NCBI RefSeq assembly: GCF_015523185.1
Contig: NZ_WAKV01000035.1
Coordinates: 1 to 64,000, forward strand
Source of the DNA: Thermococcus sp.
GTDB lineage: Archaea > Methanobacteriota_B > Thermococci > Thermococcales > Thermococcaceae
Reading direction: 5' to 3'
DNA: 64,000 nucleotides
Shown here: positions 11,454-56,668 of the stretch, in pieces
How the letters are laid out: each line of letters starts with the position of its first letter
Numbering within the stretch: position 1 is the first letter of the stretch
The notes under the pieces: generated by a model
What the model was told of the DNA's origin: nothing
The model's database searches: none
The model's input: the letters and a program-made list of their open reading frames with translations, nothing else
Translations under genes and position numbers: made by a program

Positions 11454-11498
11454 TGAAACCACCGTTTTAACGCTAAACCTGTGACAATAAAAACATTG

Positions 11499-13030: not shown

Positions 13031-13686
13031 CCAATCACCTCCAGCAGTTCTTCCCTGGTTAGAAACCTTTCATCCTTTGCCACGCGCATCGTGTCCCCGC
13101 TCAGCTCGTCTATAATCAAAAGCTCACCGTCCAGCCTGCCGAACTCGAGCTTGAAGTCAACAAGCTGAAGGCCCTTTAAGGAGAAGAACTCCCGCAGGAT
13201 TTTGGCCACCTTCCTTGTAGTTTCCTTCATTTTTTCAATATCTTCCCCACTCGCGATGCCGAGGGCGACTACTGCATCTTCAGCTATCAACGGGTCGTCG
13301 AGGAAGTCATCCTTGAGTGTGAACTCGACTATTCCCAAAGGATGGAACTGTCTTACCCATCCTCTATATCTCCTCAGAAAGCTCCCGTAGGCGAGTTCGC
13401 GGTAGATTACCTCAAGCGGAATCCTTTCGGCCTTCAGGAAGCGCGCCTTTCTCTCGTCAATCCTCTCGACAAAGTGCGTCTTTATCCCGTTCTCTTCGAG
13501 GAGCTTGAAGAAGAACTCGGTCTGCTTCAAAACAACGCTCCCCTTTCCGGTCTTTTCGCCAACGACTTCGTTGCCCCCGCTGTCTTCTTTCCCTTTTCTG
13601 CCGAGGACTGTGTCCTTGAAGTGGAAAATGAGGTAAGGACCGTCTTCGTAGACGTCCTTGGTCTTGCCCGAATAGATGAGTCTCAA
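13027..13686 (-). CDS. purC: Phosphoribosylaminoimidazole-succinocarboxamide (SAICAR) synthase
   Basis: This 219-residue enzyme joins aspartate to CAIR with ATP. Family motifs are clear: YSGKTKDVYEDG near the start, ERIPLEVIYRELAYGSFLRRY, LVDFKLEFG and IIDELSGDTMR near the C-terminus. Length is slightly shorter than the bacterial enzyme, as is normal in archaea. The start is TTG 13686 with GAGGTGAG 4 nt upstream, only 4 nt after the thiC stop. It is the second gene of a thiamine/purine operon. Confidence 0.93.
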   Translation of the reverse strand: MRLIYSGKTKDVYEDGPYLIFHFKDTVLGRKGKEDSGGNEVVGEKTGKGSVVLKQTEFFFKLLEENGIKTHFVERIDERKARFLKAERIPLEVIYRELAYGSFLRRYRGWVRQFHPLGIVEFTLKDDFLDDPLIAEDAVVALGIASGEDIEKMKETTRKVAKILREFFSLKGLQLVDFKLEFGRLDGELLIIDELSGDTMRVAKDERFLTREELLEVIG

Positions 13687-13690
13687 GCTC

Positions 13691-14971: not shown

Positions 14972-15007
14972 TCTTATCACCCGATTTTAAAACCTGTTTA
15001 TAACAAA

Positions 15008-36853: not shown

Positions 36854-37369
36854 ATGGGATACATAATCTTCGTCGGCTACGATACTGACGCCGAGAGAAA
36901 GCGCATCGACTACCTTCTTGAAAAGTGGTCGGGCAGGGCCGTCATCAAAAAACCCAGGGGAACGGTGATTCACATTGAAACTGAGGAGCTGAGTGAGTTT
37001 CTGGAGGAGCTCTTCTCGAAGCTTGAGGGGGACGTTGAGGAGAAGGTCGAAATCTATGAGGCAAAGCCCGTAAGGAGGAAAGTTGAAACGAGGCGAAGGA
37101 AGCTTGAGTACTCTATTCCGGAGGAAAAAAAGGTCGTGGAGCGATTTGTGGAGTACCTGATGTCCAAGCTGAACGCGAGTTTTGCCGGAGCCGATGCACT
37201 TGCAAAGGTTTACAGCGCCTACACGAGAAAGGGTAGGGCCACGATAAAGGTCATCGTACTCGGCAATGGCACCTCACGCGTGCTCTTTGAAGTTGAGGGT
37301 TTTGGGGAGGCCGTGGATTTTCTGGCCGAAAAAATTGATGAGGAACTCAAACTCTTCGCGGGTGGTTGA
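36854..37369 (+). CDS. Uncharacterised 171-residue protein upstream of a coiled-coil protein
   Basis: I do not recognise a family. The N-terminus MGYIIFVGYDTDAERKRID and the following beta/alpha pattern suggest a small mixed domain (about 1-75). A basic linker (RRKVETRRRKLEY) follows, and a second alpha/beta domain has ATIKVIVLGNGTSRVLFEVEG. It has no signal peptide or membrane segment. ATG 36854 is preferred over GTG 36845. The stop is 1 nt before the next start codon, so it is translated together with the coiled-coil protein and is probably its partner. Confidence 0.7.
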   Translation: MGYIIFVGYDTDAERKRIDYLLEKWSGRAVIKKPRGTVIHIETEELSEFLEELFSKLEGDVEEKVEIYEAKPVRRKVETRRRKLEYSIPEEKKVVERFVEYLMSKLNASFAGADALAKVYSAYTRKGRATIKVIVLGNGTSRVLFEVEGFGEAVDFLAEKIDEELKLFAGG

Positions 37370-39501: not shown

Positions 39502-40101
39502 ATGGGAATCCGCGATATCTTCGGAAAAAAGAACACCATCGAAAAGCTCTCCCTGAGGGAACTTCAGGCGGAGGAGATAAGGCTTAGAAACAGGCTTGAG
39601 CGCCTCAAAAAGGACATCAACCGGATTGAGAAAAAGAAGAAACAGCTCTTCCAGGAGGGAATAGGGGCGGACAAGCTCAAGAAGAAGATGCTCGCCCAGG
39701 AAATTAAGAGCCTTGACATGGAGCAGAAGCTCAAGCTCAAGGACTTCACCACGGCCCAGAAGCAGTATACCCTAATCAAGAACATGATAATCATCAAGAA
39801 GTACGAGAAGGAGCTCAGAAAGGTCGGAATATGGCAGAAGCTCAGCAGTGTGGAGCCCGAACAGCTTGAGCAGGCGCTCATCAAGATAAACCTCGATGGA
39901 AAAGAGTTCGACGAGATGGTCGAGGGACTCAACAGGGTCTTCGAGATGGAGGTGGCTGAGTTCGAGGAAAGCGAGGATCAGACTGAAAGGGAGCTTATGA
40001 AGGCCTGGAGCCAGGTTGAGGCAGGAGAGGCCGACGTTGAAGAAGTAACCGACAAGGTCGTTTCCATAGACAAGAGGCTTGAGGAGGAAGAGGAGCTATG
40101 A
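39502..40101 (+). CDS. ESCRT-III/Snf7-like helical protein 1
   Basis: This 199-residue cytosolic protein is almost entirely helical. It starts with a short basic-hydrophobic segment (MGIRDIFGKKN), like the membrane-contact start of Snf7 (SLFG) or PspA/Vipp1. Long basic helices follow (LRELQAEEIRLRNRLERLKKD, then a second helix from AQEIKSLDMEQ), and the C-terminal half is acidic. This basic-to-acidic layout is that of ESCRT-III. The end IDKRLEEEEEL contains the R-L pair seen in MIT-interacting (MIM1) tails. ATG 39502 is preferred over 39448 because GGAGGTG is correctly spaced. It overlaps the next paralog by 4 nt. The family assignment is from pattern, not alignment. Confidence 0.6.
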   Translation: MGIRDIFGKKNTIEKLSLRELQAEEIRLRNRLERLKKDINRIEKKKKQLFQEGIGADKLKKKMLAQEIKSLDMEQKLKLKDFTTAQKQYTLIKNMIIIKKYEKELRKVGIWQKLSSVEPEQLEQALIKINLDGKEFDEMVEGLNRVFEMEVAEFEESEDQTERELMKAWSQVEAGEADVEEVTDKVVSIDKRLEEEEEL

Positions 40102-40709
40102 GCTTCTTCTCCAGATTTTTTGGAAAGAAGAATCCCCTCGACATACCCCTCAATAAGCTCAACGAGAGCAGAATCAAGCTTGAGGTCCAGATACAGAAGA
40201 TAGAAAACGAGATAGCGGGCATAGACAGGGAGATAGCTCTGCTCTTCGAGAGGGCGAAGAAAGCGAGAAGCAAGAGCGAGGAGCTCACCATAGCGACGAA
40301 GATAAAGACGCTGAACCAGCGCAAGAAGAACCTCCAGGCGACCCACTCCCAGCTCAACAAACAGTTAATGCTCATAAGCAACCTTTTGATAATCAAGGAG
40401 AACGAGGCGATTCTGAAGGAAACGCCGACGTGGAACATGCTTCGCAACATGTCGCCGGAGGAACTTGAGAGAAACCTGGCAAACGTACAGCTCGACGCCC
40501 AGAACTTCAGCGAGAACCTTAACAGAATGCTGGGCATAACCGACCAGACGCTCAATGCAGGCGTGGATTTCGAGGAGGACGAGGAGTTAGCGGAGATAAT
40601 GAAGACTATCCACGCGGTCAAGGAGGGCGAGCTTGAGCCAGAAGTTGCCGCTGAAAAAGTGACGGGCGAGGAGAAGGAGAAGAAAAAGGAGTGGCTGGAG
40701 GTGGTTTGA
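40098..40709 (+). CDS. ESCRT-III/Snf7-like helical protein 2
   Basis: This 203-residue paralog of the preceding protein begins MSFFSRFFGKKNPLD, an aromatic, basic segment well suited to insert into a membrane face. Helices LNESRIKLEVQIQKIENEI and ATIKIKTLNQRKKNLQATH-like stretches form the long hairpin expected of ESCRT-III. The C-terminal third is acidic and ends with a Lys/Glu tail and EWLEVV. Both proteins share the order hairpin, short linker, then an acidic tail. Its ATG overlaps the previous stop (ATGA), so the pair is co-translated and may co-polymerise. No MIM1-like R-L tail is visible here. Confidence 0.6.
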   Translation: MSFFSRFFGKKNPLDIPLNKLNESRIKLEVQIQKIENEIAGIDREIALLFERAKKARSKSEELTIATKIKTLNQRKKNLQATHSQLNKQLMLISNLLIIKENEAILKETPTWNMLRNMSPEELERNLANVQLDAQNFSENLNRMLGITDQTLNAGVDFEEDEELAEIMKTIHAVKEGELEPEVAAEKVTGEEKEKKKEWLEVV

Positions 40710-40775
40710 TTTTTCTACCACTAAATCATTTGCTTTGAGTCATGCCAGAGATTGGTCTCTATTGGGGGCGATAGT

Positions 40776-43700
40776 ATGAAAAAATCCCTTGCATTCGTGA
40801 TAGTGTTATTGGTAGTCTCCGCCATAGTTATGGATCTAAACTGGAGGGGACTTGTTAGCGCTTCAACCGGTGCTCTTATATTTTTTGATGATTTTAATTC
40901 TGGAGACTACTCTAACAATTGGATTGCTGGAAACGTATCACTTCATTATCCATCCAGAACAACAGTAGTCATAACCCCAATAGTAGATGCTTGGAAGGAG
41001 TATGGAGGATACCTAATAGGTACTGATGGGATAAACCCCGAAACAGGAGAACCAGCTGGAGGAGACTGGATTTACATATATGCCAAATTTAAAATACCAA
41101 CTAGGGGCATCATCATAACTGCCAGGGTTAAACTTCAGGACGATTCAAATGCAGTCATCGCACTCATACCCGATGACCCAAAGAACAACACACACATTAT
41201 CGCCGGAGCTGATATAGTTGCATATCCGTCCAATAGCGGATGGTATGCCTTTTCTGGAAACGGGTATGAAGTTCATCGTACAGGAAATGTTGATGGGAGC
41301 GTTGTTAATGGTAAGTGGTACACGGTTAAGATTGTTATCCCGCCCAATGGATCACAGGTTAAAGTGTACGACGGTGACACTGGTGAGCTTAAGGTTGTTG
41401 ATGATTATTATACTGTTCCAAACACAACGGCGTATCTGGTGTTGGATGCTAGAGGAAGCTGGGGCAGTGGAGCAAATGTGACATTTGATTATGTCAAAGT
41501 TACATCACTAACGTCTGCTCCTTCATCCCCTGTCATATATAAAGATAAAATTCTTGAGATAAATCTCAGAGATTATAGCATACTCAAAATGTATGGTTAT
41601 GACTGGCTGAAGAACTATCCAGAACCAAAATTGCCCTACCTATGGATAGTCGTGACTTATGGACAGCCGGGTTATTACTCCAGCTTTAAAATAGGACAAT
41701 GGGAAAATGTAAAACTTGTTGAAAATAACAGTGAAAAAACTGTTTACCAGCTTTCAACGACCCTCCAAGGTCCCTCGGCACTGCCTTTTACACAGACAAT
41801 GACGTTTTACAGAAACAGTGGTCTGATAAAGATAGAGAGGTACAAAGTTCTCGACAATGGATGGGGAGTGGAGGACACTATAAATGGCATATCCCCCGGA
41901 GGGGACACAGCAAATGATTATATAGTCTCAAGTGAATTTAGTGAGCATCCAATAAACTACAGGGACACATTCTGTACAGGAACCGATTGGACAGCATGTC
42001 AGGAATATACTGCGGAGAGCCTTAAAGGATATCATGGGTACGTGTACTTAGCGGCATATGACAAACAGAAGAAACAAGGTTTTGCAATAATAGTTCCTAA
42101 AGAATATATCAAGGATACATACTCTGATATCAGATATTCAGTCCTTCGTGCGTTTTTTACAGAACCCACTACATACTGGAAAGCATGGCGCTGGTATATA
42201 TCTATCCAAACAGACTCTACAAAAAACGTTGTTTATTACTGGTATTTCTACAAGTTTACTAACGACCCAACAGCTCCAATTAAGAAACTAATTGACAGTG
42301 GAATGAACCCCCACGTTGCTAGAGAACTCACAGGAACATCGAGTTATCCCTCAACTCAAACATCAACAACTTCCTCGACCTCAACTAGCACCACAACAAC
42401 AAATACTCCCCCGGTAACAACAACGTCAACGGTTACAACTACTACAACTACCTCAACACTTGCTCCCATTGCTAACTCGGCTATAGACACTGCCAAGGAT
42501 ATTCTCTCAAAGGTGCCGAGCTCCGTGGACACGGGTGATGCCCAGACGATGCTCGATGAAGCTCAGAAGGCTTATGAAAACGGCGACTACGAGCTGGCTG
42601 AAAAGTTCGCCAAAACGGCACAGGCTTTAGCTGTAAAGGCTTACTACGACGACCTCAGGGCAAAGCTCCAAGTGAAAGAGAGCCAGGGTCAGGACGTTAG
42701 CGAGGCCTCCAATCTTCTCCAGCAGGCCTACAACGCCTACCAAAGGAAAGACTACACTGCGGCGCTTGAGATACTTACCAAGGCTGACCTTGTCCTCCAG
42801 GGCGTTCAACCGAAGGAAAACAGCCTGTTGAAGTATCTGCCAGTTCTGCTCGGATTGGTAGGACTGGTTGTCGTGGGCTTTGTGTATTCAAAAAGAAAGA
42901 AAGTCGAGGCCGAAAAGCTCAGGGCGGAGTTTGAAGCCAGCCTGAATTCCGGTGACAACATAGTCGAAAAGGACCCGTTCAGTGCCCTGGAGTACTATTC
43001 AAAGGCATTCTCGATGGCGAAGAGGCTCGGCGATTCCCACCTGGTAGCCAAGGCTCAGGAGAAGCTCAACACAGTTCGCGGCACGGTGACGGGAGAGATA
43101 AACTCCCTTATGGCGAAAGGCGATGAAGCTCTGAAGAACGGTGACTACGACAAGGCTTTAGCGTACTACCGTGAGGCCCTCAACCTCGCAGAAAAGCTCC
43201 ACGACGCGAAGAGAACCGAGGAAGCACGGGAAAAGATGGAGAGCGTCCACAAGGTGAGAAAGATAAGGGAACTCATCTCGGAAGGCGACGTTTTGATGGA
43301 ACAGGAGAGGTACTCCGAGGCCCTCAAGCGCTACCGTGAGGCACTGGAAATAGCCAAAGGGCTCGGGGATAGCTACTTCATCGAGCTCCTCAAGGGAAGG
43401 GCCTCAAGGGCGAACGAGATAGTTGAGAGGCTCAACGGCGAAGTTTCCTCGCTCGTGGCTTCCGCTGAGAGGGACATGATGGAAGAGGATTACGAGAGCG
43501 CCAGGGAGAAGCTTTCACAGGCCATCGTTCTCGCTGAGAAGATAGGCGGAACCGTTAGTGTTGAGGAGATAAAGGCGAAGCTTGAAGAAGCAAAGGCCAG
43601 AAACGAGCTCAACGAGAAGCTTAAGGCCGCGAGGGGAAGCGGGGACTACTCCAAAGCCGTTGCCCTTTACAGGGAGGCCCTAAAGCTTGCCCAGAGCATC

Positions 43701-45182
43701 GGCGATGAAAGGATGGTGGCACAGATAAACTCCGAGATCGAAGAGGTTGAAAAATCCCGCGTCCTCGAAACCCTGAGGAACGGGATAGAGCTGATCCTTC
43801 CGAAGGAAGTTCCCTACGGGAGGGAGACAACGCTGAGTATCAACGTTGAGAACAGGCTCGGCGAGACGATAAACGACCTCACAGTTGATCTGTCAGAACT
43901 CTCACCCTACTTCGTAATGGACGAGGAGAAGGTGACGTTCCCACCTATAAAGCCTAGTAGGAGGCTTGGGAAGGACATAAGACTGAAGCCGCAGTTCAAG
44001 GGCGACTTCGACTTCAACGTCAAGATATCGTCCAGCATTGGCGAGACGGTTAAGCCCCTCAGGATCAAGGTTGGGGACTATTATGCTCCTTCACAGTTTA
44101 CACCCAGACCTCTGACGCCTAAATCCGCCCCGGAGGAGCTTGAGGCCCTTTACGAGGACTTCCAGTACATTGGTGAGGGCGGCTTTGCGAGGGTTTTCAA
44201 GGCGAAGAGAAAGAAGGACGGCAAGGTCGTTGCCGTCAAGGTGCCCAAAACCCTCGATCCAGCAACGGGCAAGGCCTTTGTGAGGGAGATTAGCAACTGG
44301 CTCCACCTCAAGCACCCAAACATCGTTGAGCTCCACGATGTAAACGTCATTCCCATCCCATACCTTGAGATGGAGTACTGCGAGGGCTCGCTGGCAAAGC
44401 TCGGAAAGCCCATGGACGTCGAGAGGGCGGCACATATAATCTTCAACATCGCCGAGGGTCTGAAATACGCCCACGCCAGGAAGATAATCCACCGGGATTT
44501 AAAACCGAGCAACATACTCCTCAAGAACGGCCTTCCCAAGATTTCCGACTGGGGATTAAGCAAAGTCATGAGCGAGAGCCGCTCGTCAACTCTCTCAAGC
44601 TTCACCCCCTATTACGCCGCTCCAGAACAGCTCTCCCCGAGGCGCTTCGGCGGAACCGATGAGAGAACCGACATCTGGCAGCTTGGAGTTCTCTTCTACG
44701 AGCTGGTTACTGGGAAGATGCCGTTCGAAGGCCGTGACCTCGGGGAGATAACATACGCGATAATCAACGAAAACCCTGCTCTACCGAGCGAACTCAATCC
44801 TGAGGCGAAGCTCGTCGAGCCGATAATCATGAAGATGCTCGCCAAGGACAAGGAAAAGCGCTACGCGAGCGTTGAGGAGCTCCAGAGAGACCTCGCCAAA
44901 GTTCTCAACATGACCTATGTTGAGGGACTGAAGAAGAGCACCGACCTCAAGAGGACGGTCTTCTACATAGGCGACCTGGCCCTGATCAACCTCAAGGCCG
45001 GAAACCTGAAGGAGGCTCTCAAGTATTTCATCGAGCTCAGGGACTACGCCGGCAAATACGGAAAAGAGCTTGACAACCTCATTGATCAGATCAAGCTCGC
45101 GATGGATGAGGGCGTTAAGCTCGGTGAAGAGGCCGTGATGAAGGCCGACGTCATAGTCCACCAGATAAAGATGGGACGATGA
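40776..45182 (+). CDS. Membrane Ser/Thr protein kinase 2 with lectin-like ectodomain
   Basis: This 1468-residue protein has a signal peptide, then a concanavalin/LamG-like domain (FFDDFNSGDYSNNWIAG...FDYVKV) and a further beta-rich region. A Thr/Ser-rich stalk (about 42345-42460), GDYE-type helical repeats and a membrane helix (YLPVLLGLVGLVVVGFVY) follow. The cytosolic part has four or five TPR-like repeats, an immunoglobulin-like domain (LILPKEVPYGRETTLSINV), the kinase (GEGGFARVFKAK, AVKVPK, IIHRDLKPSNILL, SDWGLSK, YAAPEQ) and the shared C-terminal helical module. All catalytic residues are present. The ectodomain DNA is visibly more AT-rich than the kinase part. ATG 40776 starts the signal peptide after GGGGGCGAT. 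Confidence 0.87.
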   Translation: MKKSLAFVIVLLVVSAIVMDLNWRGLVSASTGALIFFDDFNSGDYSNNWIAGNVSLHYPSRTTVVITPIVDAWKEYGGYLIGTDGINPETGEPAGGDWIYIYAKFKIPTRGIIITARVKLQDDSNAVIALIPDDPKNNTHIIAGADIVAYPSNSGWYAFSGNGYEVHRTGNVDGSVVNGKWYTVKIVIPPNGSQVKVYDGDTGELKVVDDYYTVPNTTAYLVLDARGSWGSGANVTFDYVKVTSLTSAPSSPVIYKDKILEINLRDYSILKMYGYDWLKNYPEPKLPYLWIVVTYGQPGYYSSFKIGQWENVKLVENNSEKTVYQLSTTLQGPSALPFTQTMTFYRNSGLIKIERYKVLDNGWGVEDTINGISPGGDTANDYIVSSEFSEHPINYRDTFCTGTDWTACQEYTAESLKGYHGYVYLAAYDKQKKQGFAIIVPKEYIKDTYSDIRYSVLRAFFTEPTTYWKAWRWYISIQTDSTKNVVYYWYFYKFTNDPTAPIKKLIDSGMNPHVARELTGTSSYPSTQTSTTSSTSTSTTTTNTPPVTTTSTVTTTTTTSTLAPIANSAIDTAKDILSKVPSSVDTGDAQTMLDEAQKAYENGDYELAEKFAKTAQALAVKAYYDDLRAKLQVKESQGQDVSEASNLLQQAYNAYQRKDYTAALEILTKADLVLQGVQPKENSLLKYLPVLLGLVGLVVVGFVYSKRKKVEAEKLRAEFEASLNSGDNIVEKDPFSALEYYSKAFSMAKRLGDSHLVAKAQEKLNTVRGTVTGEINSLMAKGDEALKNGDYDKALAYYREALNLAEKLHDAKRTEEAREKMESVHKVRKIRELISEGDVLMEQERYSEALKRYREALEIAKGLGDSYFIELLKGRASRANEIVERLNGEVSSLVASAERDMMEEDYESAREKLSQAIVLAEKIGGTVSVEEIKAKLEEAKARNELNEKLKAARGSGDYSKAVALYREALKLAQSIGDERMVAQINSEIEEVEKSRVLETLRNGIELILPKEVPYGRETTLSINVENRLGETINDLTVDLSELSPYFVMDEEKVTFPPIKPSRRLGKDIRLKPQFKGDFDFNVKISSSIGETVKPLRIKVGDYYAPSQFTPRPLTPKSAPEELEALYEDFQYIGEGGFARVFKAKRKKDGKVVAVKVPKTLDPATGKAFVREISNWLHLKHPNIVELHDVNVIPIPYLEMEYCEGSLAKLGKPMDVERAAHIIFNIAEGLKYAHARKIIHRDLKPSNILLKNGLPKISDWGLSKVMSESRSSTLSSFTPYYAAPEQLSPRRFGGTDERTDIWQLGVLFYELVTGKMPFEGRDLGEITYAIINENPALPSELNPEAKLVEPIIMKMLAKDKEKRYASVEELQRDLAKVLNMTYVEGLKKSTDLKRTVFYIGDLALINLKAGNLKEALKYFIELRDYAGKYGKELDNLIDQIKLAMDEGVKLGEEAVMKADVIVHQIKMGR

Positions 45183-45194
45183 CGGTGGGACATC

Positions 45195-46838
45195 ATGCCC
45201 CACAGGCGCAGAACTCCCGAAGAAGATTTCCTCTATCGGCTCTTTGTGGCTTTCTTTTTAATCGCCCTTCTGAAGAGCTTAGGCTTAGTTCTGGCCTTCT
45301 TCATTTTTCTACCTTTCATTAGGAAAATCCTGCTGGAAACGACCGTCCCCAAGAAACCTGCCCCTCCCAAGGAGAGAATTCCCCCGAAAACTAAAACACC
45401 TGATATGAAAGACTTTCTGGCCCGTGGACTGAAGGTTGAGGTTCCAGAAAACCTTATCCCGGGCGCTACCGTTCTTCTCAAGGTGGGCTTCAGGAACACG
45501 TCGAAGAGACCTGTGGATGTGGAAATAGACCTTGGCGGATTCTCCGGTATCGGGAGGATATCTCATAGAAGGATTCACCTGAGTGTAGGCCCCAATGAGG
45601 GAAGGCACGTCTTCGTTGAGTTTATCCCAACGAAAGAGGGTTCGTTTTCCGTCCCAATTAACGTGAGAAGCGGGACCGTTAGAATCAGGAAAGATGTTGC
45701 CCTTACAGTTAAAGCCGCTGGAAAGCCCGTTTCGCCCGAGGAAGAGAGTGCCAAAGGAACCTTCGGAACCCTCGACGAACTCTTCTCCCGCTACCGCTCG
45801 GTTGAACTTATCGGGAGCGGCGGTTTCGGACGGGTTTACCGGGCGGTGAGAGGCGATGGGAGTGTGGTTGCCCTCAAGGTGCCTCACTCGCTGAACGAGC
45901 GGACTGGAAAGGTTTTCCTGCGCGAGATATCGGTCTGGTTCTCCCTGAGGCACCGAAACATCGTCCGCCTTTACGACGCCAACCTCTACCCATACCCGTA
46001 CATCGAGATGGAGTACTGCGACGGCTCGCTGGAGAACCTCAACGTCCCTCTGAACTGGGAGCAAGCCGGCAGGATTGCCTTCGATGTCACCGAAGGGCTG
46101 AAGTACGCGCACTCGAAGGGAATTATCCACCGCGACCTAAAGCCGAGCAACATCCTCCTGAAGGGAAGAACGCCGAAGATAAGCGACTGGGGGCTGGCTA
46201 AACTCCTCACCGAAACGAGCACAAATTCTTCGGCCTTCACACCCTACTATGCCGCCCCGGAGCAGATAAGTAAAGCGAGGTTCGGCCCAACTGACGAGAG
46301 GACAGATGTCTGGCAACTCGGCGTTCTCCTCTACTGGCTGACCACTGGAAGGCTTCCCTTCGAGGGGGAGGACTTCATCGAGGTGGTCGAGAAGATAACG
46401 ATGGAAGAACCCGTCCCACCGTCGGAGATACATCCCGAGTCAAAGCCCCTCGAGCCGGTCATTATGAGGTGCCTCGCGAAGAGGAAGGAGGAGCGCTATC
46501 AGTCCGTTGCTGAGCTCCAGCGCGACCTTGCGGGTCTCTTGGGCAGAAAGTACTCCAGAGAGCTTGAGCAAAGCACAGACTTCTCCCGTTCGGCGTACTA
46601 CACGGGGGAGCTTGCCCTGCTGAACCTGAAGCTCGGGAACACAGCGGAGGCTCTCAGGTACCTCATCGAACTTAAGAAGTACGCCGGGAATCATAAGAAA
46701 GAGCTTGAGCAACTCATCTCTCAGTTAAAGCTCGCAATCGAGGAGGGTGTAGAGCTCGGAGACGACGCGATTACGAGGGTAGAAATTCTTGTGAACGAAA
46801 TACTGGCCGGAGGGAACTTAGGTGAAGTGCACCTATGA
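45195..46838 (+). CDS. Membrane-anchored Ser/Thr protein kinase 3, no ectodomain
   Basis: This 547-residue kinase has one or two N-terminal membrane helices (FVAFFLIALLKSLGLVLAFF, residues about 14-40) and no large outer part. An immunoglobulin-like domain (LKVEVPENLIPGATVLLKV) related to those of kinases 1 and 2 follows, then a complete kinase: GSGGFGRVYRAV, ALKVPH, IIHRDLKPSNILL, SDWGLAK, YAAPEQ. The C-terminal helical module SAYYTGELALLNLKLGN is shared with its neighbours. It may be an inner-membrane relay for kinases with ectodomains. It starts 12 nt after kinase 2 behind GGTGGGA and overlaps the channel gene at its end. Confidence 0.9.
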   Translation: MPHRRRTPEEDFLYRLFVAFFLIALLKSLGLVLAFFIFLPFIRKILLETTVPKKPAPPKERIPPKTKTPDMKDFLARGLKVEVPENLIPGATVLLKVGFRNTSKRPVDVEIDLGGFSGIGRISHRRIHLSVGPNEGRHVFVEFIPTKEGSFSVPINVRSGTVRIRKDVALTVKAAGKPVSPEEESAKGTFGTLDELFSRYRSVELIGSGGFGRVYRAVRGDGSVVALKVPHSLNERTGKVFLREISVWFSLRHRNIVRLYDANLYPYPYIEMEYCDGSLENLNVPLNWEQAGRIAFDVTEGLKYAHSKGIIHRDLKPSNILLKGRTPKISDWGLAKLLTETSTNSSAFTPYYAAPEQISKARFGPTDERTDVWQLGVLLYWLTTGRLPFEGEDFIEVVEKITMEEPVPPSEIHPESKPLEPVIMRCLAKRKEERYQSVAELQRDLAGLLGRKYSRELEQSTDFSRSAYYTGELALLNLKLGNTAEALRYLIELKKYAGNHKKELEQLISQLKLAIEEGVELGDDAITRVEILVNEILAGGNLGEVHL

Positions 46839-47986: not shown

Positions 47987-49189
47987 ATGCCGGTTGACCT
48001 ATCCGGGCCGCTGATGAGCGCCTTCAAGAAGGCCAAAAGGGAATACGAGGAAGCACTCAAGAGGGGCGATGCCGAGACTGCTAGGAAGAAGGCCCTTGAG
48101 TGCGCCCGCATACTTAGACAGCTCTCGAAATACGACGAGTTCAACCGCGAGAGCTATCTCAGGAAGGCCAAGAAGTGGGAAACGCTGGCCAGGGACATAG
48201 AAAGCGGGCGCCTCCAGAGGACAAAAAACAGACCTATGAGGGAAGGCAACTCAAGATGGGATAAAGCTGAGGAGAAAGGAGACAACGAGGAGGAGAAGTT
48301 CAAGGCCTACGTAAGGAACAACCTCATAGCCAGATCAAAGGTTAAGTGGAGCGACATAGGGGGCCTCGACGAGGTTAAGGCTCTCCTCATGGAGACCGTT
48401 GTCATAGCGGCCCTTCAAAGGCCAGAGTCGATACAGCCGTGGAAGGGAATCCTTCTCTTCGGTCCGCCGGGAACGGGTAAGACCCTGTTAGCTTCAGCGG
48501 CCGCTGGAAGTTTGAACGCGACATTCTTCAGCGTTAAGGCCTCAAACGTTTTGAGCAAATATTTCGGAGAGTCGGCAAAGATAATCTCGGCTCTCTATGA
48601 GGTTGCCAGAGAGGAAGCGCCAAGCATAGTCTTCATGGATGAAATCGATGCTCTAACAACGAAGCGCTCCGGCGAGCAGAGCGAGGCCAGCAGGAGAATG
48701 TTGTCCACGCTCCTGACTGAGCTGGACGGCTTTCAGGATAAGGGAAGCGACATCCTGGTTCTCACGCTTGCGGCGACCAACACACCCTGGGATTTGGATG
48801 AGGCCGTTCTCTCGCGCTTCCCGAGGAGGATTTACGTACCTTTGCCCGACAAGAAGGCCACCAAGGAGATAATCAAGATCAACACGCGCGGGCTTGACAT
48901 TTCCCGCCTAGACCTTGACGCCATAGCAGAGGAGAGCGTTAAAAGGCTGTACTCTGGGAGGGATTTGAAGAATCTCTGCCAGCAGGCAATATGGAACATG
49001 ATACGCGAGGAGAATCCCGACCTGCACAAATTAGCGGAGCTTCCCTTCCACGAGCTGAGGAAGCGCTCACTAAGAACGAGACCGCTGGAGATGCGCGATT
49101 TCGAGGAGGCGTTCAAGAAAATCAAAAGCCCGCTGACAAAGAGGGACATCGAGCGGTACGAGAGGTGGGCGGAGGAGTTCGGGGGATGA
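47987..49189 (+). CDS. Vps4/CdvC-like AAA ATPase 1 with N-terminal MIT-like domain
   Basis: This 400-residue protein starts with a three-helix MIT-like domain (AFKKAKREYEEALKRGDAETA, residues about 10-70). A charged linker leads to an AAA domain beginning WSDIGGLDEVK. Walker A is GPPGTGKT (159-166), the pore loop KYFGES (191-196), Walker B IVFMDEID (214-221). The arginine fingers are in SRFPRRIYVPLPD, the form typical of Vps4/katanin. The C-terminus FKKIKSPLTKRDIERYERWAEEFGG matches the Vps4-type terminal helix. Vps4 removes ESCRT-III polymers from membranes. ATG 47987 follows GGGGTGGT; a TATA-like GTATATATAAAAC (47963-47975) is rather close for that start. It overlaps kinase 4 by 4 nt. Confidence 0.82.
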   Translation: MPVDLSGPLMSAFKKAKREYEEALKRGDAETARKKALECARILRQLSKYDEFNRESYLRKAKKWETLARDIESGRLQRTKNRPMREGNSRWDKAEEKGDNEEEKFKAYVRNNLIARSKVKWSDIGGLDEVKALLMETVVIAALQRPESIQPWKGILLFGPPGTGKTLLASAAAGSLNATFFSVKASNVLSKYFGESAKIISALYEVAREEAPSIVFMDEIDALTTKRSGEQSEASRRMLSTLLTELDGFQDKGSDILVLTLAATNTPWDLDEAVLSRFPRRIYVPLPDKKATKEIIKINTRGLDISRLDLDAIAEESVKRLYSGRDLKNLCQQAIWNMIREENPDLHKLAELPFHELRKRSLRTRPLEMRDFEEAFKKIKSPLTKRDIERYERWAEEFGG

Positions 49190-52026
49190 CGGTGAGCAAG
49201 ATCCTTAGAATTACACTATTGGTTATTTTATTCTCTTTCCTATTAGTTATTTATGGAAAACAAACAAGAGCAGAGGAGTTCATATCTTGGGAAAATCCTC
49301 TAGTGATTAACATCCCCAATAGTGCCGGATATCTTCAGTTCTGCTCGCAGGGGAACTCGACATTTGCAGTGGCATCAAATAACACAGTTCTGGTATATTC
49401 TTTTTCGGGAGAACTCGTATGGGAATTAACATCGCAATGGACAGGGAATGTTTTTTCAGTGTCAATCTCTCCCGATGATAAGTTCTTAGCTATTGGAACA
49501 GACAAAGGAGAGCTACTTCTTTACAACATGTCCAGTAAGAGGCTACTTTGGAAAAGGTTTCTCCCAAATAAATATGTACGCTCTATTAGCATTGCGTCCA
49601 ACAGAATTACTGTAGGTAACGAGAATACCATTCTCGTTTACAACCTTAACGGGAACCTTCTATGGTCTCAGAGTGGATTTCCATACATTTATCAAGTTAA
49701 AATTTACAAGGACTTGATTATAGTAGGAGCGGCTATCACTGGGGAAGGCAAAAATCTTTATGAACTTTCGATTATAGACGGAAGTATATTGAAAAGCTTT
49801 AGAGTAGGGACTGGAAACGCAGAGCTTATTGATGTATCCTCCAATGGAATGCTGGGAGTTTTCGTCAACACCCAAAATCCTAATGGCTCTTGGAGCGGTC
49901 AGGTTTACCTCGTGCAGGATGAGAAGATAGTGGCCGTTAAAAACTGGCCTTTCCCCCTGTATAGGGGATATATTAGGTTTATTGGACCTGAAGAGCTAGC
50001 AGTACCAAATTACAAGGGATTTGTTGGGATAGTCAATTCCTCAGGAAGAGTTACTCTTTTAGGTGTTCCATCAACTTTAGCGGTCTTCTACAACGGAAGA
50101 GATTTCGCATCTATTGCTGAAGGGAGAATATTCATCTATCACAAAGGTACTAACAATCAGTATACTAAAACCAATGAGTCTCTCAATGTAAATCAAGCAA
50201 AACTTTCTATATTTTCCGTTCCCGAAAAATCCAAAGTGTATATCAATGGAACTTACAAGGGGTTAACACCCCTGGTTCTAAATCTCACACCAGGGGCTTA
50301 TGAGATAAAGCTCTCGAAACAAAATTACAGGAATTACACAACAAGTATAATCCTGACTCCAAAAGAAAACAAGACCTTAAAAGTTGAGTTGACACCTACC
50401 TTCGGTTATTTAAGCGTTGACTCCTCCCCCTCTGGAGCGAAGGTTTACATTGACGGGAACTACGCCGGAGAAACGCCCTTAAGCGATTACAAGCTTTCAC
50501 CCGGTGAGCACACGGTTAGGATTGTTAAAGATGGTTACGAGGAGTTCACCAGAAAGGTAACTGTGAGCGCCGGAGAAATGGCCAGCGTTACTGCGAGCCT
50601 TATAATGATAACAACCACGACCAGCTCAACTTCTATAACAACCAGTTCTGCTACAACAATCTCCCCGACCCAAACCGTTCAGGCAACGACGGGGGGAATC
50701 CCGAAGACTTACGTTCTGGTGGGACTTCTCGTCCTTGGATTAATCGGCGGAGTCGCGGTAAAAGCCAAGGGTGGAAAGCCGAAATCCCCTCCTTCCCCGG
50801 GTGAAACCGCAAGGCCATCATCAACCCCGGCGAGGAAACCAGAACCCAGAACCCCGCCAAGGGTTCCAGGCTTCCCGCCCGAACTTCTGGAAAAATACGA
50901 ACCCCTCGAGTTCCTCGGCGAGGGCGGCTTCGCGAAGGTCTTTAAAGTCAAGCGCAGGAGCGACGGAAAAATCATCGCCCTTAAGGTCTCCCGCCTAGAC
51001 GAGAAGGCCAGGAAGTTCTTCCTCAAGGAAGTCAAAGCGTGGCGCCTTCTTGACCATCCAAACATCGTCAAGCTCTACAACGCCTACGATGAACCTCTGC
51101 CACACCTTGAAATAGAGTTTGTTGATGGCGTAAAGCTCAACGGCGAAGTAATCAGGGACCTCGGAAAGTATCCGAAGCCCGTCGGTGAAGAAAAGGCGCT
51201 CCACTTCATCATGGGAATTGCTGAAGGACTAAGGCATGCACATTCAAAGCAGGTCTACCACCGCGACCTGAAGCCACAGAACGTTCTGATAACGAGTGAT
51301 TTAACGCCAAAGATAACCGACTGGGGGCTGGCAAAGGTTGGAGCAGTATCAACGACCGCAACCACAACCAAAGGATTAACGCTCCTCTACGCCGCTCCAG
51401 AACAGCTCGATGACGAGACCTACGGGCATACCGATGCCAGAACGGACATCTATCAGCTCGGCTTAATCTTCTACGAGCTTTTGACCGGCAAACTTCCCTA
51501 CCAGGGGACTTCCCCAGCTGTAGTAATGGCCAAGGTGATAAACCCCGACGTCAAGCCAAAACCCCCGAGCCACTTCAACAAGGCCTTAGCCAAATACGAT
51601 GGCATCTTTGAGAAACTCTTAGCGAAGAAGAAAGAAGACCGCTATGGGAGCGTTGAGGAGTTCCTGAGTGACCTTGAACTTCTCAAAAAGCTTGAGGCGG
51701 AAAGGGCAAGGCTCGCCGAGGAGATTGAGAAGACGAAGACGACTATGAGTTTAACCACGGACAGCAGGGAGCTTAAAAAGCTCCGCAGACAGCTCGTGGA
51801 ACAGCTGAGCAGGAACGCCCTTTTACTGGCACAGCTCAACGACAAGGCCGAGTTAATCAACGCGCTTGAGGATTTGAAGGCCTTCTCAAAGACCCACAGG
51901 AATGAGCTTGAAAACGCTATAAGCCAGCTTGAGATTATGATGCGTGAAAGCGTTCCTATAAGCAAATCAACCTTGGACGAGCTTAAGGTTCTCCTCCACA
52001 AAGTCCAGAAGGAGGTAGAAGAATGA
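49186..52026 (+). CDS. Membrane Ser/Thr protein kinase 4 with beta-propeller and two PEGA domains
   Basis: This 946-residue protein has a signal anchor (ILRITLLVILFSFLLVIYG). A WD/PQQ-like propeller follows (SISPDDKFLAIGTDKGELLLYN), then two PEGA repeats (SVPEKSKVYINGTYKGLTPL; SSPSGAKVYIDGNYAGETPL) and a Thr/Ser stalk. The membrane helix is TYVLVGLLVLGLIGGVAV. The cytosolic kinase has GEGGFAKVFKVK, ALKVSR, VYHRDLKPQNVLI, TDWGLAK and YAAPEQ, all catalytic residues intact. The helical C-terminus is a divergent form of the module in kinases 1-3. The propeller DNA is AT-rich compared with the kinase part. It overlaps both the AAA gene before and the phosphatase after (ATGA each). Confidence 0.88.
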   Translation: MTVSKILRITLLVILFSFLLVIYGKQTRAEEFISWENPLVINIPNSAGYLQFCSQGNSTFAVASNNTVLVYSFSGELVWELTSQWTGNVFSVSISPDDKFLAIGTDKGELLLYNMSSKRLLWKRFLPNKYVRSISIASNRITVGNENTILVYNLNGNLLWSQSGFPYIYQVKIYKDLIIVGAAITGEGKNLYELSIIDGSILKSFRVGTGNAELIDVSSNGMLGVFVNTQNPNGSWSGQVYLVQDEKIVAVKNWPFPLYRGYIRFIGPEELAVPNYKGFVGIVNSSGRVTLLGVPSTLAVFYNGRDFASIAEGRIFIYHKGTNNQYTKTNESLNVNQAKLSIFSVPEKSKVYINGTYKGLTPLVLNLTPGAYEIKLSKQNYRNYTTSIILTPKENKTLKVELTPTFGYLSVDSSPSGAKVYIDGNYAGETPLSDYKLSPGEHTVRIVKDGYEEFTRKVTVSAGEMASVTASLIMITTTTSSTSITTSSATTISPTQTVQATTGGIPKTYVLVGLLVLGLIGGVAVKAKGGKPKSPPSPGETARPSSTPARKPEPRTPPRVPGFPPELLEKYEPLEFLGEGGFAKVFKVKRRSDGKIIALKVSRLDEKARKFFLKEVKAWRLLDHPNIVKLYNAYDEPLPHLEIEFVDGVKLNGEVIRDLGKYPKPVGEEKALHFIMGIAEGLRHAHSKQVYHRDLKPQNVLITSDLTPKITDWGLAKVGAVSTTATTTKGLTLLYAAPEQLDDETYGHTDARTDIYQLGLIFYELLTGKLPYQGTSPAVVMAKVINPDVKPKPPSHFNKALAKYDGIFEKLLAKKKEDRYGSVEEFLSDLELLKKLEAERARLAEEIEKTKTTMSLTTDSRELKKLRRQLVEQLSRNALLLAQLNDKAELINALEDLKAFSKTHRNELENAISQLEIMMRESVPISKSTLDELKVLLHKVQKEVEE

Positions 52027-54953
52027 AGAAGCTTCTCTCCCTCTTCATCCTTTTTCTGTTGCTTCCCACCGCCGGCGCCGTAGTCTGGGTAAAGACCTAC
52101 ACACCGAAGGTTCCTGTCCAGGAGGGCGCCTACCTCAACGGAGCGGTCTACCTCGCGGGCACCCTGAACAGCAGCGTCGCTCTCATCGCCCTGACCGAAA
52201 ACGGTTCACCCATCTGGGGGAAACTCTATCGGCTTGACAACTGGAGCGTCGTGAGGTACATGAGAGTGGGCGGGAACTCCATTTTCCTTGTGGCCTCAAT
52301 CGGGAACGTTACAAACCAGACGCCTGTGGTGCTCAAACTCGACCCCAGTGGAAACGTTCTGTGGGCGAGAGAGCTTTCTCTCAACTCCCAGATGGGCGTG
52401 GTTGTTCCAATTGGAGGAGGGATCCTCGTCCTCCTCAACTATAGAAGGGGCATCGTTGTGGCAAAAATGAACGGCAACGGCTCTATAGCGTGGGCGAGAC
52501 TCTATGTTCCAGATAACGGAAGTCTCTCCGTAGAAGATGCCCTTCTCTGGAACGAGAGCCTCTTCGTCTGCGGTCAGGCAGAGGTTGGAGGAGTTACAAA
52601 TCCCTTCGCCATGAGGATCTTATCCAACTGGAGCGTTGCGTGGGCGGAGGTTTATCCCTTCGGGAAAAAAGAGGTCTTGGGAAACGAGGTGAGAAGTAGC
52701 AACGGTTACTCGTGGGGAATGGCAGTTTCAAATGGTACCCTCTTCATTAGCGGCAATCCCGCGGGTCCCGGGTTCTTTCTACTTGCATTGAGGGACAACG
52801 GAAGCCTTTTGTGGATGAGGGAGGGAGTACCCGAAATATCCCAGTGGAAGACCTACGGAGTATTTCCCAACGGCCCTACAGCCATCCCGAATGGTGTTTT
52901 CCTCCCTGGCTCTTCACTGGTTGATGGATTCGCCCTCGTTTTCAACAGCAGCGGGGATTTGATGTGGGGCGGCGGAATCAGCGTCCCAGAGGGAGGACTA
53001 TACACGTCCAGCGATTTTTCCGGTGACGGGGTTTACGTTGCAGGCTTCACGAGGTTGGGGTACCCGGTGCTACTCCACGTCAACGGTAACTGCCTCTCCA
53101 AGCTCTGCCTTCCCTTCAGGCCACTTCACGTTGAATGGAAGAACGCCTCAATCGAGGTGGAAAGGCTGGGTGTAGGGGTCTCTGAGATCGGCCTGAAAAG
53201 TAAGGAGATTACTGTCAGAACCTCGCACTTTCGAGTTTCGTTGGACGCCTCCCGGAGCACAATTGTTGTGAACGTCACGTCGAAACCGGGAGATGCGCTT
53301 CTGCTCGTTGACAACGTGACCGTGGGGAGAACGCCGACAGCGGTGTTCCTCTTTCCAGGCCTGCACAGGTTCACATTGAGGAAGGAAGGATACTTCAACG
53401 TCAGCAGGTGGGTTCGGATTGGGGAACAAACGTCCCCCCTAACCTTCGAGCTAATCCCCCGCCAAGCTGAGCTCAACGTCTCCTCAACCCCGGAGGGTGC
53501 CGAGATCTATCTAGACGGGCTCCCCCTTGGAAAGACTCCCCTGAGCAGGCACGTGCAACCCGGAAACTACACCCTGACCATCGTTCTCAAAGGGTACTTT
53601 AACTGGACGAAAAACGTGACCCTCGGCCCGGGTGAAAACCTCACCATAAACGCAGCCCTGAGGCCCAAACCGGGCGTCATCAGCGTAGTCTCCCATCCAG
53701 AGGGCGCGAAGGTCTACGTCGATGGAAACTACACGGGAAAAACACCCCTCAACGTCTCCGTTTCGGCCGGAAAGCACGAGGTAAGGCTTTCCCTCAGGAA
53801 CCACGAGACCTACTCCACCACCGTCGAAGTTGAACCCGGGGCTTTGGTGTCCATAAGCGAAGTCCTCAAGCCCCTCCCTGGGATGCTCTTCATCAACTCA
53901 ACTCCCTCAAACCTGACCGCTCTCGTAACCGGGACGAACATCACAAAGACGTGCATAACCCCCTGTTCCCTTTTACTACCACCCGGAGAATACATCGTTA
54001 ACGTGAGCGACGGCAAAAGCTGGAACGCAACGAAAGTCGAGGTAAAGGCGAACTCCACCTCAACGGCTTTTCTTATGGTTGGCGCCCCCAAGAAGGGGTC
54101 AAAGGTTCCTCTACTGATTGCCCTCACCCTTCTCGCGCTGGGCAGTACAGGTGCTTACCTCTACTGGAGAAAGAACGGTGTAGGTGTTGAGGAGGTAACG
54201 AGAACCGAAAAGGCCATCGAGGTGAAAGCAGGCAAAGCCTTTGGCATAAGCCACGTTGGAGCAAGGGACAACAACGAGGACAACCTTCTGATAATGAGGC
54301 TCCCAGATGCATACCTCTTAGCTGTGGCAGATGGCCTCGGCGGTCACAATGCAGGGGAAGTTGCTTCACAAATCGCTGTTGATACCCTAAAAGAGGTCTT
54401 TGGACAGGGTTATCGCAAGGGTATGAGCAACAAGAAGATAATGAAACTGTTGAGAATATCCCACGAACTCGCTCATAAACGCATACTGGAGAATGCTGTA
54501 GGGGATAAGGAGGGAATGGGCACAACACTTGTTACAGCTGTTGTTAAACAAAAAGAAGCGGTTATAGCGAACACTGGCGACAGCAGGGCTTATCTGATAA
54601 GAAATGGAAAAATAATCGGAAGAACAAAAGACCACTCCCTCGTTCAGGAGCTACTCGACAAGGGCGAGATAACGGAAGAAGAGGCCAAGAGGCACCCGAT
54701 GAGGAACATCATAACGAAGGCACTCGGAATAGACTTCGGCGTTGACCTCTACGAGTGGAAGCTTGAAAAGGGCGACGTTCTTCTTCTGAGTTCAGATGGT
54801 CTTCACGACTACGTTGATGAGAAGAAGATAGTCGAAATAGCCTCCGAAGGAAAGAGCGCGGAAGAGATAGCTAAGAAGCTGATTGAAGAAGCCCTGCCGG
54901 TCACAAGGGATAATGTGACTGTTATAGTTTTTCAAAAAATAGGAGGGTTCTAA
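52023..54953 (+). CDS. Membrane-anchored PP2C phosphatase with propeller and PEGA ectodomain
   Basis: This 976-residue protein has a signal peptide (KKLLSLFILFLLLPTAGA), an SBBP/PQQ-like propeller (about 25-370), then three to four PEGA-type repeats (SSTPEGAEIYLDGLPLGKTP; SHPEGAKVYVDGNYTGKTPL). One membrane helix follows (VPLLIALTLLALGSTGAYLY). The cytosolic PP2C domain has SHVGARDNNEDN, VADGLGGHNAGEVAS, GMGTTLVTAV, NTGDSRAYL, SSDGLHDYV and RDNVTVIV, so all metal-binding aspartates are present. It removes phosphate from Ser/Thr and is the natural counterpart of the four kinases. The ectodomain shares PEGA repeats with kinase 4, directly upstream and overlapping, which suggests a common signal. 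Confidence 0.92.
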   Translation: MKKLLSLFILFLLLPTAGAVVWVKTYTPKVPVQEGAYLNGAVYLAGTLNSSVALIALTENGSPIWGKLYRLDNWSVVRYMRVGGNSIFLVASIGNVTNQTPVVLKLDPSGNVLWARELSLNSQMGVVVPIGGGILVLLNYRRGIVVAKMNGNGSIAWARLYVPDNGSLSVEDALLWNESLFVCGQAEVGGVTNPFAMRILSNWSVAWAEVYPFGKKEVLGNEVRSSNGYSWGMAVSNGTLFISGNPAGPGFFLLALRDNGSLLWMREGVPEISQWKTYGVFPNGPTAIPNGVFLPGSSLVDGFALVFNSSGDLMWGGGISVPEGGLYTSSDFSGDGVYVAGFTRLGYPVLLHVNGNCLSKLCLPFRPLHVEWKNASIEVERLGVGVSEIGLKSKEITVRTSHFRVSLDASRSTIVVNVTSKPGDALLLVDNVTVGRTPTAVFLFPGLHRFTLRKEGYFNVSRWVRIGEQTSPLTFELIPRQAELNVSSTPEGAEIYLDGLPLGKTPLSRHVQPGNYTLTIVLKGYFNWTKNVTLGPGENLTINAALRPKPGVISVVSHPEGAKVYVDGNYTGKTPLNVSVSAGKHEVRLSLRNHETYSTTVEVEPGALVSISEVLKPLPGMLFINSTPSNLTALVTGTNITKTCITPCSLLLPPGEYIVNVSDGKSWNATKVEVKANSTSTAFLMVGAPKKGSKVPLLIALTLLALGSTGAYLYWRKNGVGVEEVTRTEKAIEVKAGKAFGISHVGARDNNEDNLLIMRLPDAYLLAVADGLGGHNAGEVASQIAVDTLKEVFGQGYRKGMSNKKIMKLLRISHELAHKRILENAVGDKEGMGTTLVTAVVKQKEAVIANTGDSRAYLIRNGKIIGRTKDHSLVQELLDKGEITEEEAKRHPMRNIITKALGIDFGVDLYEWKLEKGDVLLLSSDGLHDYVDEKKIVEIASEGKSAEEIAKKLIEEALPVTRDNVTVIVFQKIGGF

Positions 54954-55520
54954 ATGGTTAGATTTTGGAAATCTAAGGAGGAAAAAGAGATAGAGCGCAA
55001 GATGCGCATGAGGAAGGCAAAGATGGCCCTGAAGCAGTACATTAACAACCTCGAGAACCTGAAGCGCAAAATATTTCTCCAAGGAAAGGAAGCGGCAAAA
55101 CTTGGAGATGAAGCCCTTCTAAAGAGGAGCGCCATGAAATACCTCGCCCTTGAAGAGCGAATAAAGCAGGCTAAAAGATTGCTCCTCCTCATGGAGGAGG
55201 CCGAAATCCAGAGAGAGCTGGTGAAGGTCTCGGCTAACTTCATCCAGTTCAGCAGGGACATAGTCGAGAGCATAGCTGAAGGACCGGGGGCTCAGGACAT
55301 AGCAAAGATGCAGATTGAATTCGAAAAAGCCATGGGAAAAGTTGAAGAACTCGATGAAGCGCTCGCTTCAATGCTCGATCTGACGAGTGAAAGCATACTA
55401 ACAGGAGATTTCGACGCAGAAACAATTGAAGAGGCAACATCTCTCTTTGAGTCCTCTGCCTCCTCAGACTTAGAGCCCAAGAGCAGACTTAAGCAGATTG
55501 AAGACGCCATGAGGGATTGA
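54954..55520 (+). CDS. ESCRT-III/Snf7-like helical protein 3
   Basis: This 188-residue helical protein starts MVRFWKSKEEKEIERK, a short aromatic-basic segment followed by long helices. ALKQYINNLENLKRKIFLQ, then GKEAAKLGDEALLKRSAMKY and LVKVSANFIQFSRDIVESI closely follow the Snf7/CHMP pattern, including the small G-x-x-A-A-K turn between the first two helices. The C-terminal half is acidic and ends SRLKQIEDAMRD, similar to a MIM1 tail (R-L-x-x-I/L) that MIT domains bind. The next gene encodes an MIT-AAA protein, supporting a substrate-ATPase pair. It starts directly after the phosphatase stop. Confidence 0.68.
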   Translation: MVRFWKSKEEKEIERKMRMRKAKMALKQYINNLENLKRKIFLQGKEAAKLGDEALLKRSAMKYLALEERIKQAKRLLLLMEEAEIQRELVKVSANFIQFSRDIVESIAEGPGAQDIAKMQIEFEKAMGKVEELDEALASMLDLTSESILTGDFDAETIEEATSLFESSASSDLEPKSRLKQIEDAMRD

Positions 55521-55522
55521 TA

Positions 55523-56668
55523 ATGCAGTCCCTCTATTTGTCACTTTTTGAAGATTGCAAACGAGAGTACGAGAAAGCCCTTGAAGCCGGTGACTTAAGA
55601 ACTGCAGCGGATCTAGCCAAGAAATGTGCCGAGATACTTGCCAAGATATCCGAGAAAATACCATCCAGACGAGAGTTCTACCTGGAGAAAGCCAAGAAAT
55701 GGAGTATAGTTGCTGATAACCTGATAAGAAGTACAACTGCAACTGAAGCTAAAAATGCCACTTTTGGAAACAAGAGAAGAATAGAGGACGAATACGTCTC
55801 CATTGTGGAAAATTTAATCTCCCACTCGACTATTACCTGGGACGACATAGGAGGACTCGAAGACGTTAAAAGACTTCTTGCGAAAAACGTTGCCCTTGCA
55901 CTCGCCAAAAAACCCGATGCAATTAAACCATGGAAGGGCATTCTTCTTTTTGGACCACCCGGAACCGGAAAAACGCTCCTTGCTTCAGCAACAGCCGGTA
56001 GCCTCAATGCCACGTTCTTTAACGTCAAAGCCAGCGCCGTACTTAGCAAATATTTTGGCGAATCCTCCAAACTAATTTCAGCATTGTATCAAGTAGCAAG
56101 GGAAAGAACACCGAGCATCGTGTTTATCGACGAAATAGATGCCCTCACGCCAAAAAGGGAAAACGTTCATGAGGCGACTCGGAGAACCCTTGCGACACTT
56201 CTTACTGAGATCGATGGTTTTAAGAGCGAGAAAGATCGTTTTGTTCTTACATTGGTCTCAACGAACACGCCATGGGACTTGGATGAAGCTATTCTCTCGC
56301 GTTTTCCCCTCAGGATTTATGTTCCCCTACCCGATAGAGAAGCCACTAAGGCAATAATAAGAATCCACACAAAAGGACTTGATATATCCCACTTAGACCT
56401 TGACACTATAGCTGAAAAAAGCATGAAACGACTTTACTCAGGGAGGGAAATCGCTGCATTGTGTCAAGTTGCAATTCACAATATGCTTGAGCACGAGAAT
56501 CCTGAGCTTTTAGACATAAAGAGGCTCACGAACTTAGAAAACCTTGAGCTAAAGGTTAGGCCACTTGAGATGTGGGACTTTGAGAAAGCTTTCAAGAAAA
56601 TCAAGAGTCCACTTACAAGAAAGGACATAGGGCGTTATGAACGTTGGGCTCAGGAATTCGGAACATAG
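55523..56668 (+). CDS. Vps4/CdvC-like AAA ATPase 2 with N-terminal MIT-like domain
   Basis: This 381-residue paralog of the 47987-49189 protein has the same plan. The MIT-like helices come first (EDCKREYEKALEAGDLRTAA). The AAA core has WDDIGGLEDVK, GPPGTGKTLLASA, KYFGESS, IVFIDEIDAL and SRFPLRIYVPLPD. The terminal helix is FKKIKSPLTRKDIGRYERWAQEFG. One finger residue differs: RFPLR against RFPRR in paralog 1. Its codon use is much more AT-rich than paralog 1, so it may have a separate history. ATG 55523 is preferred over TTG 55517, with GAGGGATTG before it. It is the last gene of the cluster. Confidence 0.82.
   Translation: MQSLYLSLFEDCKREYEKALEAGDLRTAADLAKKCAEILAKISEKIPSRREFYLEKAKKWSIVADNLIRSTTATEAKNATFGNKRRIEDEYVSIVENLISHSTITWDDIGGLEDVKRLLAKNVALALAKKPDAIKPWKGILLFGPPGTGKTLLASATAGSLNATFFNVKASAVLSKYFGESSKLISALYQVARERTPSIVFIDEIDALTPKRENVHEATRRTLATLLTEIDGFKSEKDRFVLTLVSTNTPWDLDEAILSRFPLRIYVPLPDREATKAIIRIHTKGLDISHLDLDTIAEKSMKRLYSGREIAALCQVAIHNMLEHENPELLDIKRLTNLENLELKVRPLEMWDFEKAFKKIKSPLTRKDIGRYERWAQEFGT

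Follow-up and report, generated by a model that had tools for sequence, protein, structure and literature searches.

E3, the third ESCRT-III-like protein encoded in the window (the whole 64,000 nt stretch of DNA that was analysed, from a thermophilic archaeon of the Thermococcus group), ends in a conserved tail, EPKSRLKQIEDAMRD, which, as judged from its aligned homologues, is a real feature under selection. We consider it fairly probable that E3 is the subunit that recruits Vps4 in a kinase- and phosphatase-controlled euryarchaeal ESCRT-III membrane-remodelling system of the ‘Main’ type, and that its tail docks on the MIT bundles of Vps4 ATPases. The gene directly behind E3 encodes a second Vps4-type ATPase, V2.

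The E3 and V2 genes and their locus

The E3 reading frame runs from an ATG at 54954 to a TGA stop at 55518–55520, the protein ending in SRLKQIEDAMRD with the final stretch ...DLEPKSRLKQIEDAMRD. Its start directly abuts the stop of the PEGA-PP2C phosphatase gene (52023–54953), and the ATG of V2 is found at 55523, 2 nt past the E3 stop, with the gene ending at 56668; a TTG at 55517 in the list of open reading frames is in frame with this ATG and upstream of it. The coordinates, protein end and spacing that the initial annotation had given for the pair were all confirmed. As E3 directly follows the PP2C stop and is separated from V2 by only 2 nt, PP2C, E3 and V2 are probably transcribed as a single unit.

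The E3 copy of the window matched Pfam Snf7 weakly, with an E-value of 0.0076 that fails to reach the Pfam cut-off, and Snf7 was matched by 18 of the 18 E3 homologues scanned (matches counted at E up to 1, the best being 4.5e-6). The AF2 model of E3 (pLDDT 80.8 overall, 48–52 in the last blocks) predicts a long α1–α2 hairpin (helices 8–50 and 53–107) and helices 113–150 and 155–168, beyond which a linker of low confidence leads to a terminal helix (175–187) that stands apart. Ranks 1–4 of its PDB matches were Sulfolobus CdvB/CdvB2 filaments (S. islandicus), with a probability of 0.99–1.00, modest E-values of 0.02–0.15 and a TM of about 0.4; BAR domains and further proteins with long helices appeared at lower ranks. 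Because of these modest E-values and BAR-type matches, the assignment leans jointly on Snf7, predicted fold and gene context, and on this combined basis we regard E3 as ESCRT-III-like, in agreement with the initial proposal. A PHROGs search with E3 gave no match. Profile comparisons of E3 with E1 and with E2, made with thin alignments, likewise gave no match (10–14% probability only), so that paralogy of E3 with E1 and E2 is unsupported by sequence. E1 had no Pfam match of its own.

V2 matched the Pfam families AAA (2.3e-38) and Vps4_C (9.4e-8), and its Walker A and B, pore loop and SRFP motifs are intact. The N-terminal 79 residues matched MIT neither in Pfam nor in a PDB profile search. AF2 modelled this N-terminus as a three-helix bundle (pLDDT 88), among whose best structural matches were the Vps4 MIT domains 2w2u, 2v6y, 4niq, 9bl8, 5fvl and 2v6x, together with other MIT domains; the Vps4 MITs of S. 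solfataricus and of yeast are among the best natural matches, with a TM of up to 0.83. No structural match reached an E-value of 0.001, and de novo helical bundles were also listed, as is expected for a small three-helix fold. An MIT fold of the V2 N-terminus is thus supported by fold prediction only, with negative sequence profiles, and V2 is an MIT-AAA ATPase of the Vps4 type, as had been suggested for the neighbour of E3. PADLOC matches of V1 and V2 to IetA/TRIP13 were taken as general AAA similarity and not as a defence call.

The other genes of the locus are listed in the table. In relatives, a compact cassette is found that consists of the Cas2/TBP protein, the coiled-coil protein, E1, E2, a kinase, V1, PP2C and E3, and a homologue of about 607 aa occupies the place of the coiled-coil protein in other cassettes. 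The conserved gene behind E3 in compact cassettes (700–750 aa) was considered as a partner and rejected, as its product, judged by sequence, is a P-type ATPase that is His-rich and transports metal, and as some 20–110 nt separate the gene from E3. Two genes of the genome score above the FtsZ family cut-off, and the ESCRT system therefore need not be a division machine.

Features of the ESCRT locus in the window (positions on the forward strand of the 64,000 nt stretch)
Feature	Position	Strand	Basis
Small protein fitting the arCOG08177 description (Cas2-like and TBP-like domains)	36854..37369	+	Position, size; kept in cassette; putative member
Coiled-coil protein, 615 aa, fitting the arCOG09748 description (C-terminal winged helix)	37371..39218	+	Position, architecture; putative member
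E1, ESCRT-III-like, without tail	39502..40101	+	Profile match to E2 (probability 98.7%, E 1.5e-16)
E2, ESCRT-III-like, without tail	40098..40709	+	Snf7 0.0013; in 39/94 Thermococcaceae genomes
Membrane Ser/Thr kinase, 1476 aa, TPR/MIT-like repeats, C-terminal kinase domain	40752..45182	+	Pkinase 1.1e-49, TPR 2.7e-16
Membrane Ser/Thr kinase, cassette core	45195..46838	+	Pkinase 1.6e-48; conserved in cassette
V1, main Vps4-type ATPase, 400 aa, probably the general E3-tail reader	47987..49189	+	AAA 1.1e-40, Vps4_C 1.3e-8; in all 30 E3 genomes
Beta-propeller-PEGA Ser/Thr kinase, probable start 49186, 4 nt overlap with V1 stop	49186..52026	+	Pkinase 2e-45, PEGA 9.6e-37
PEGA-PP2C Ser/Thr phosphatase, directly upstream of E3	52023..54953	+	PEGA 2.9e-54, PP2C_2 2.7e-16
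E3, third ESCRT-III-like protein, 188 aa	54954..55520	+	Snf7, AF2 model, PDB matches
Conserved C-terminal tail of E3, proposed MIT-binding element	55473..55517	+	Conservation, pN/pS, missing from E1/E2
V2, second Vps4-type ATPase, 381 aa: MIT-fold domain (1–72), linker, AAA, Vps4_C	55523..56668	+	Pfam, AF2, PDB matches

Three further genes of the window were noted. A protein that joins pentapeptide repeats to an ion-channel domain (46822–47946) is placed between the kinases and V1 and recurs in several, though not all, cassettes. Downstream of V2, positions 56878–58233 encode a 452-aa protein that had no Pfam or PHROGs match and shows stretches like a tyrosine recombinase (GARSSEL), and a large PD-(D/E)XK/helicase protein with a PADLOC MkoA match (8e-35) is encoded on the other strand (58812–63275). 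The same genome also carries a second ESCRT cassette on another contig (C55, about 9394–15000), with the Cas2/TBP protein, the coiled-coil protein, E1, E2, kinases and an E3 paralogue that is 75% identical to E3 of the window and has the tail EKKIREIEKMMKG. No Vps4 gene was seen beside this paralogue, so V1, V2 or a solo Vps4 (contig C85) would have to serve the subunits of this cassette in trans.

Conservation and type of the E3 tail

A loose R[LIM]xx[LIVM] motif is expected by composition alone in about 5% of 16-residue protein ends, which makes the single tail sequence of the window weak proof and leaves the decision to conservation. The tail follows the consensus [LVFI]EPxx[RK][LI][KR]xIExxM[RK]x at the very end of the protein. 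In the 31 intact E3 copies that were aligned, P175, I182, E183 and M186 are invariant and two more sites nearly so (L179, with 30 L and 1 I; R178, with 29 R and 2 K), and position 187 is R in 20 copies and K in 11. The linker preceding the tail is Ser-rich and varies by 5–6 residues in length among E3 copies while the tail is kept, and pN/pS is lower in the tail core (0.19) than in the adjoining linker (0.33), indicating slower evolution of the core. Helix 175–187 is amphipathic, with a mean moment of 0.48. No tail resembling that of E3 is present in E1 or E2. The invariance in 31 copies, the slower evolution and the absence from E1 and E2 are the grounds on which we regard the tail as selected. 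A 32nd E3 copy (genome G089, locus L061, 9372–9983) has a frameshift ahead of the tail, which is encoded in another frame; this is either a sequencing error or a recent lesion.

The initial annotation had compared the tail with MIM1, the consensus of which is (D/E)xxLxxRLxxL(K/R), or minimally LxxRLxxL. Strict and relaxed MIM1 patterns, including LxxRLxxL, were found in none of the 32 E3 copies. Only the RLxxI core is common to the E3 tail and MIM1; a proline replaces the first leucine of the motif, and the invariant IExxM is additional. The proline-rich core of MIM2 (hydrophobic-P-x-hydrophobic-P) gave no match in the tails of E1, E2 or E3 either. On the side of the reader, the VPS4 MIT mutation L64D abolishes MIM1 binding (PMC11218997), and the equivalent of Leu64, in a register inferred from sequence alignment, is Glu in 14 of 15 Thermococcales MIT domains, Ser in V2 of the window and Lys in Sulfolobales. 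The register of helix 3 was set with hhalign and MAFFT against yeast and Sulfolobales MIT domains whose sequences were confirmed against the PDB entries. An alignment by eye of YLxKAxKW with the yeast YLNRAEQL, which would retain Leu64, was dropped, since both programs agree on another register.

The MIM1 label therefore fails in two defining respects, the motif and the Leu64 pocket, which lowers the probability that the tail is MIM1 and not the probability that it works like a MIM. What stands of the earlier comparison is an amphipathic C-terminal helix on an ESCRT-III subunit with the RLxxI half of the motif. We read E3 and its ATPase neighbour as an ESCRT-III/Vps4 pair with a helical tail that resembles MIM1 and is distinct from it, and that presumably binds the ATPase. 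It is conceivable, and offered only tentatively, that the euryarchaeal ESCRT has its own helical tail–MIT code, neither MIM1 nor MIM2, consisting of an [RK]LxxIExxM helix and an MIT domain with an acidic residue in place of the pocket leucine.

Candidate readers of the tail

In a survey of 94 Thermococcaceae genomes, E2 was present in 39, V1 in 38 and E3 in 30, and V1 was found in 30 of the 30 E3 genomes (hypergeometric 1.5e-17, a value that ignores relatedness and is inflated by shared ancestry). All 12 copies of V2 lie directly downstream of E3 and none elsewhere, so that the occurrences are nested, V2 within E3 and E3 within V1. Complete genomes with E1, E2 and V1 and without E3 exist, in which V1 must work either without the E3 tail or with another tail; a search of E1/E2 loci lacking E3 with the E3 profile revealed no substitute tail. 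E3 was not found in a search of the phylum beyond Thermococcaceae. A separate scan detected, on a contig binned as Archaeoglobus sp. (locus L088, 10001–10564), an E3 that is 78% identical to that of the window and resembles a Thermococci MAG, which indicates mis-binning or transfer.

The adjacency of the two genes had been taken as a strong sign of a substrate–ATPase pair. A conserved helical tail beside an MIT protein, and a V2 that invariably follows E3, fit such a pairing. The stricter form of the idea, in which the E3 tail evolved for V2 specifically and the two act as a dedicated pair apart from E1, E2 and V1, could also draw on the divergence of the V2 MIT from that of V1 and on position 181, which is Q or A at V2 loci and E at other E3 loci. 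However, 20 of the 32 E3 copies have no adjoining V2 and bear essentially the same tail, and the differences among tails track the groups of the E3 tree; we therefore consider a dedicated pair unlikely. As the tail is kept without V2, it is no private tag for this ATPase, and, with V1 present in all E3 genomes, V1 is the likelier default reader. Between the two groups, V1 and V2 share 70% identity in the AAA domain and 38% in the MIT domain; the MIT domain and linker are the most different parts, which fits a diverged reading specificity. The V2-associated copies cluster on the E3 tree, by which a single origin of V2 is neither shown nor excluded. In the simplest reading, V2 is a later, diverged Vps4 copy that has stayed beside E3 in one Thermococcus group.

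The terminal helix might instead serve E3 itself, in autoinhibition or filament packing, and be no recruitment motif. C-terminal helices of ESCRT-III proteins can fold back on the core, and conservation alone would fit either role. The AF2 model, however, sets the helix apart behind the low-confidence linker, and a linker that varies in length before a tail that is kept is a better fit to a tethered motif, which makes such a role rather improbable. It is more doubtful still that the membrane Ser/Thr kinases serve as readers, recognizing the tail through their TPR/MIT-like repeats and then phosphorylating the Ser-rich linker in the manner of human ULK3 (PMC4475061): although the only Pfam-MIT signals in the window fall in the TPR-type repeats of two of these kinases (43125–43241, E 0.0019; 35114–35245, E 0.018) and none in the Vps4 proteins, TPR is by far the better-scoring assignment for the repeats of the 1476-aa kinase, and compact cassettes, in which the kinase is of the short form, retain the tail.

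According to the recruitment model that we favour, E1, E2 and E3 would form a filament on the membrane. Upon polymerization of E3, its last 13 residues, freed by the Ser-rich linker, would adopt the amphipathic helix and dock on the N-terminal MIT-fold bundle of the Vps4 ATPases of the locus, that is, on V1 in every E3 system and additionally on V2 in one Thermococcus group. Vps4 would then extract ESCRT-III subunits from the filament, and the flanking kinases and PP2C may control this disassembly.

Relation to known ESCRT systems

The ‘Main’ clade of euryarchaeal ESCRT systems was described with genes for Vps4, ESCRT-III, arCOG08177, arCOG09748, STK and STP, and the accessible part of that account names Thermococcales as members (PMC10936438; Makarova 2024). 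By gene content and order the present locus is of this known type, with Vps4, ESCRT-III, arCOG08177-like and arCOG09748-like proteins, membrane Ser/Thr kinases and PP2C in one locus, the arCOG names being applied by position and description. In contrast, a third ESCRT-III protein with a conserved C-terminal helix, followed by a second Vps4, is not described in the accessible part of the same account (PMC10936438).

With the eukaryotic and Asgard Vps2/CHMP MIM1 and Vps4 MIT, the locus shares an ESCRT-III protein ending in an amphipathic helix that has an RLxxI core, an MIT-AAA-Vps4_C ATPase and a division of labour among ESCRT-III subunits, whereas it differs in the tail and pocket residues described above. 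Like CdvB/CdvC of Sulfolobales, it combines an archaeal ESCRT-III fold (the best structural matches) with an archaeal MIT domain (2v6y, 2w2u) in which the Leu64 equivalent is not Leu; unlike the Sulfolobales system with the MIM2 of CdvB, its E1, E2 and E3 lack the proline-rich core, and FtsZ is present in the genome. Human ULK3 is an MIT-domain kinase that binds and phosphorylates ESCRT-III via its MIT domains (PMC4475061). Here too Ser/Thr kinases with TPR/MIT-like repeats are coupled to ESCRT-III, but the kinases of the archaeal locus are membrane proteins with repeats that score as TPR, and they are not known to bind ESCRT-III.

Helical MIM1 tails have been reported from eukaryotes and Asgard archaea, and MIM2 from crenarchaeal CdvB and from TACK and Asgard archaea (PMC7240154, PMC8970359, PMC5840170). 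In a survey of 2022, Euryarchaeota yielded no interaction motif (PMC8970359), and a review of 2021 listed Thermococcales as being without ESCRT-III (PMC10117752), in contrast to the 39 of 94 Thermococcaceae genomes in which we find the ESCRT-III protein E2 and the 30 that have E3 with its conserved helical tail. This type of system has been known since 2024; in the published literature searched, supplements and subscription papers aside, neither the conserved tail of E3 nor the coupling of E3 with V2 appears to have been described, and beyond the eukaryote-like archaea a helical tail of this sort seems not to have been reported. Should Vps4 bind the tail, recognition of helical tails would be older than the Asgard archaea or would have arisen independently, and ESCRT function alongside FtsZ would become testable in the Thermococcus species that carry the locus.
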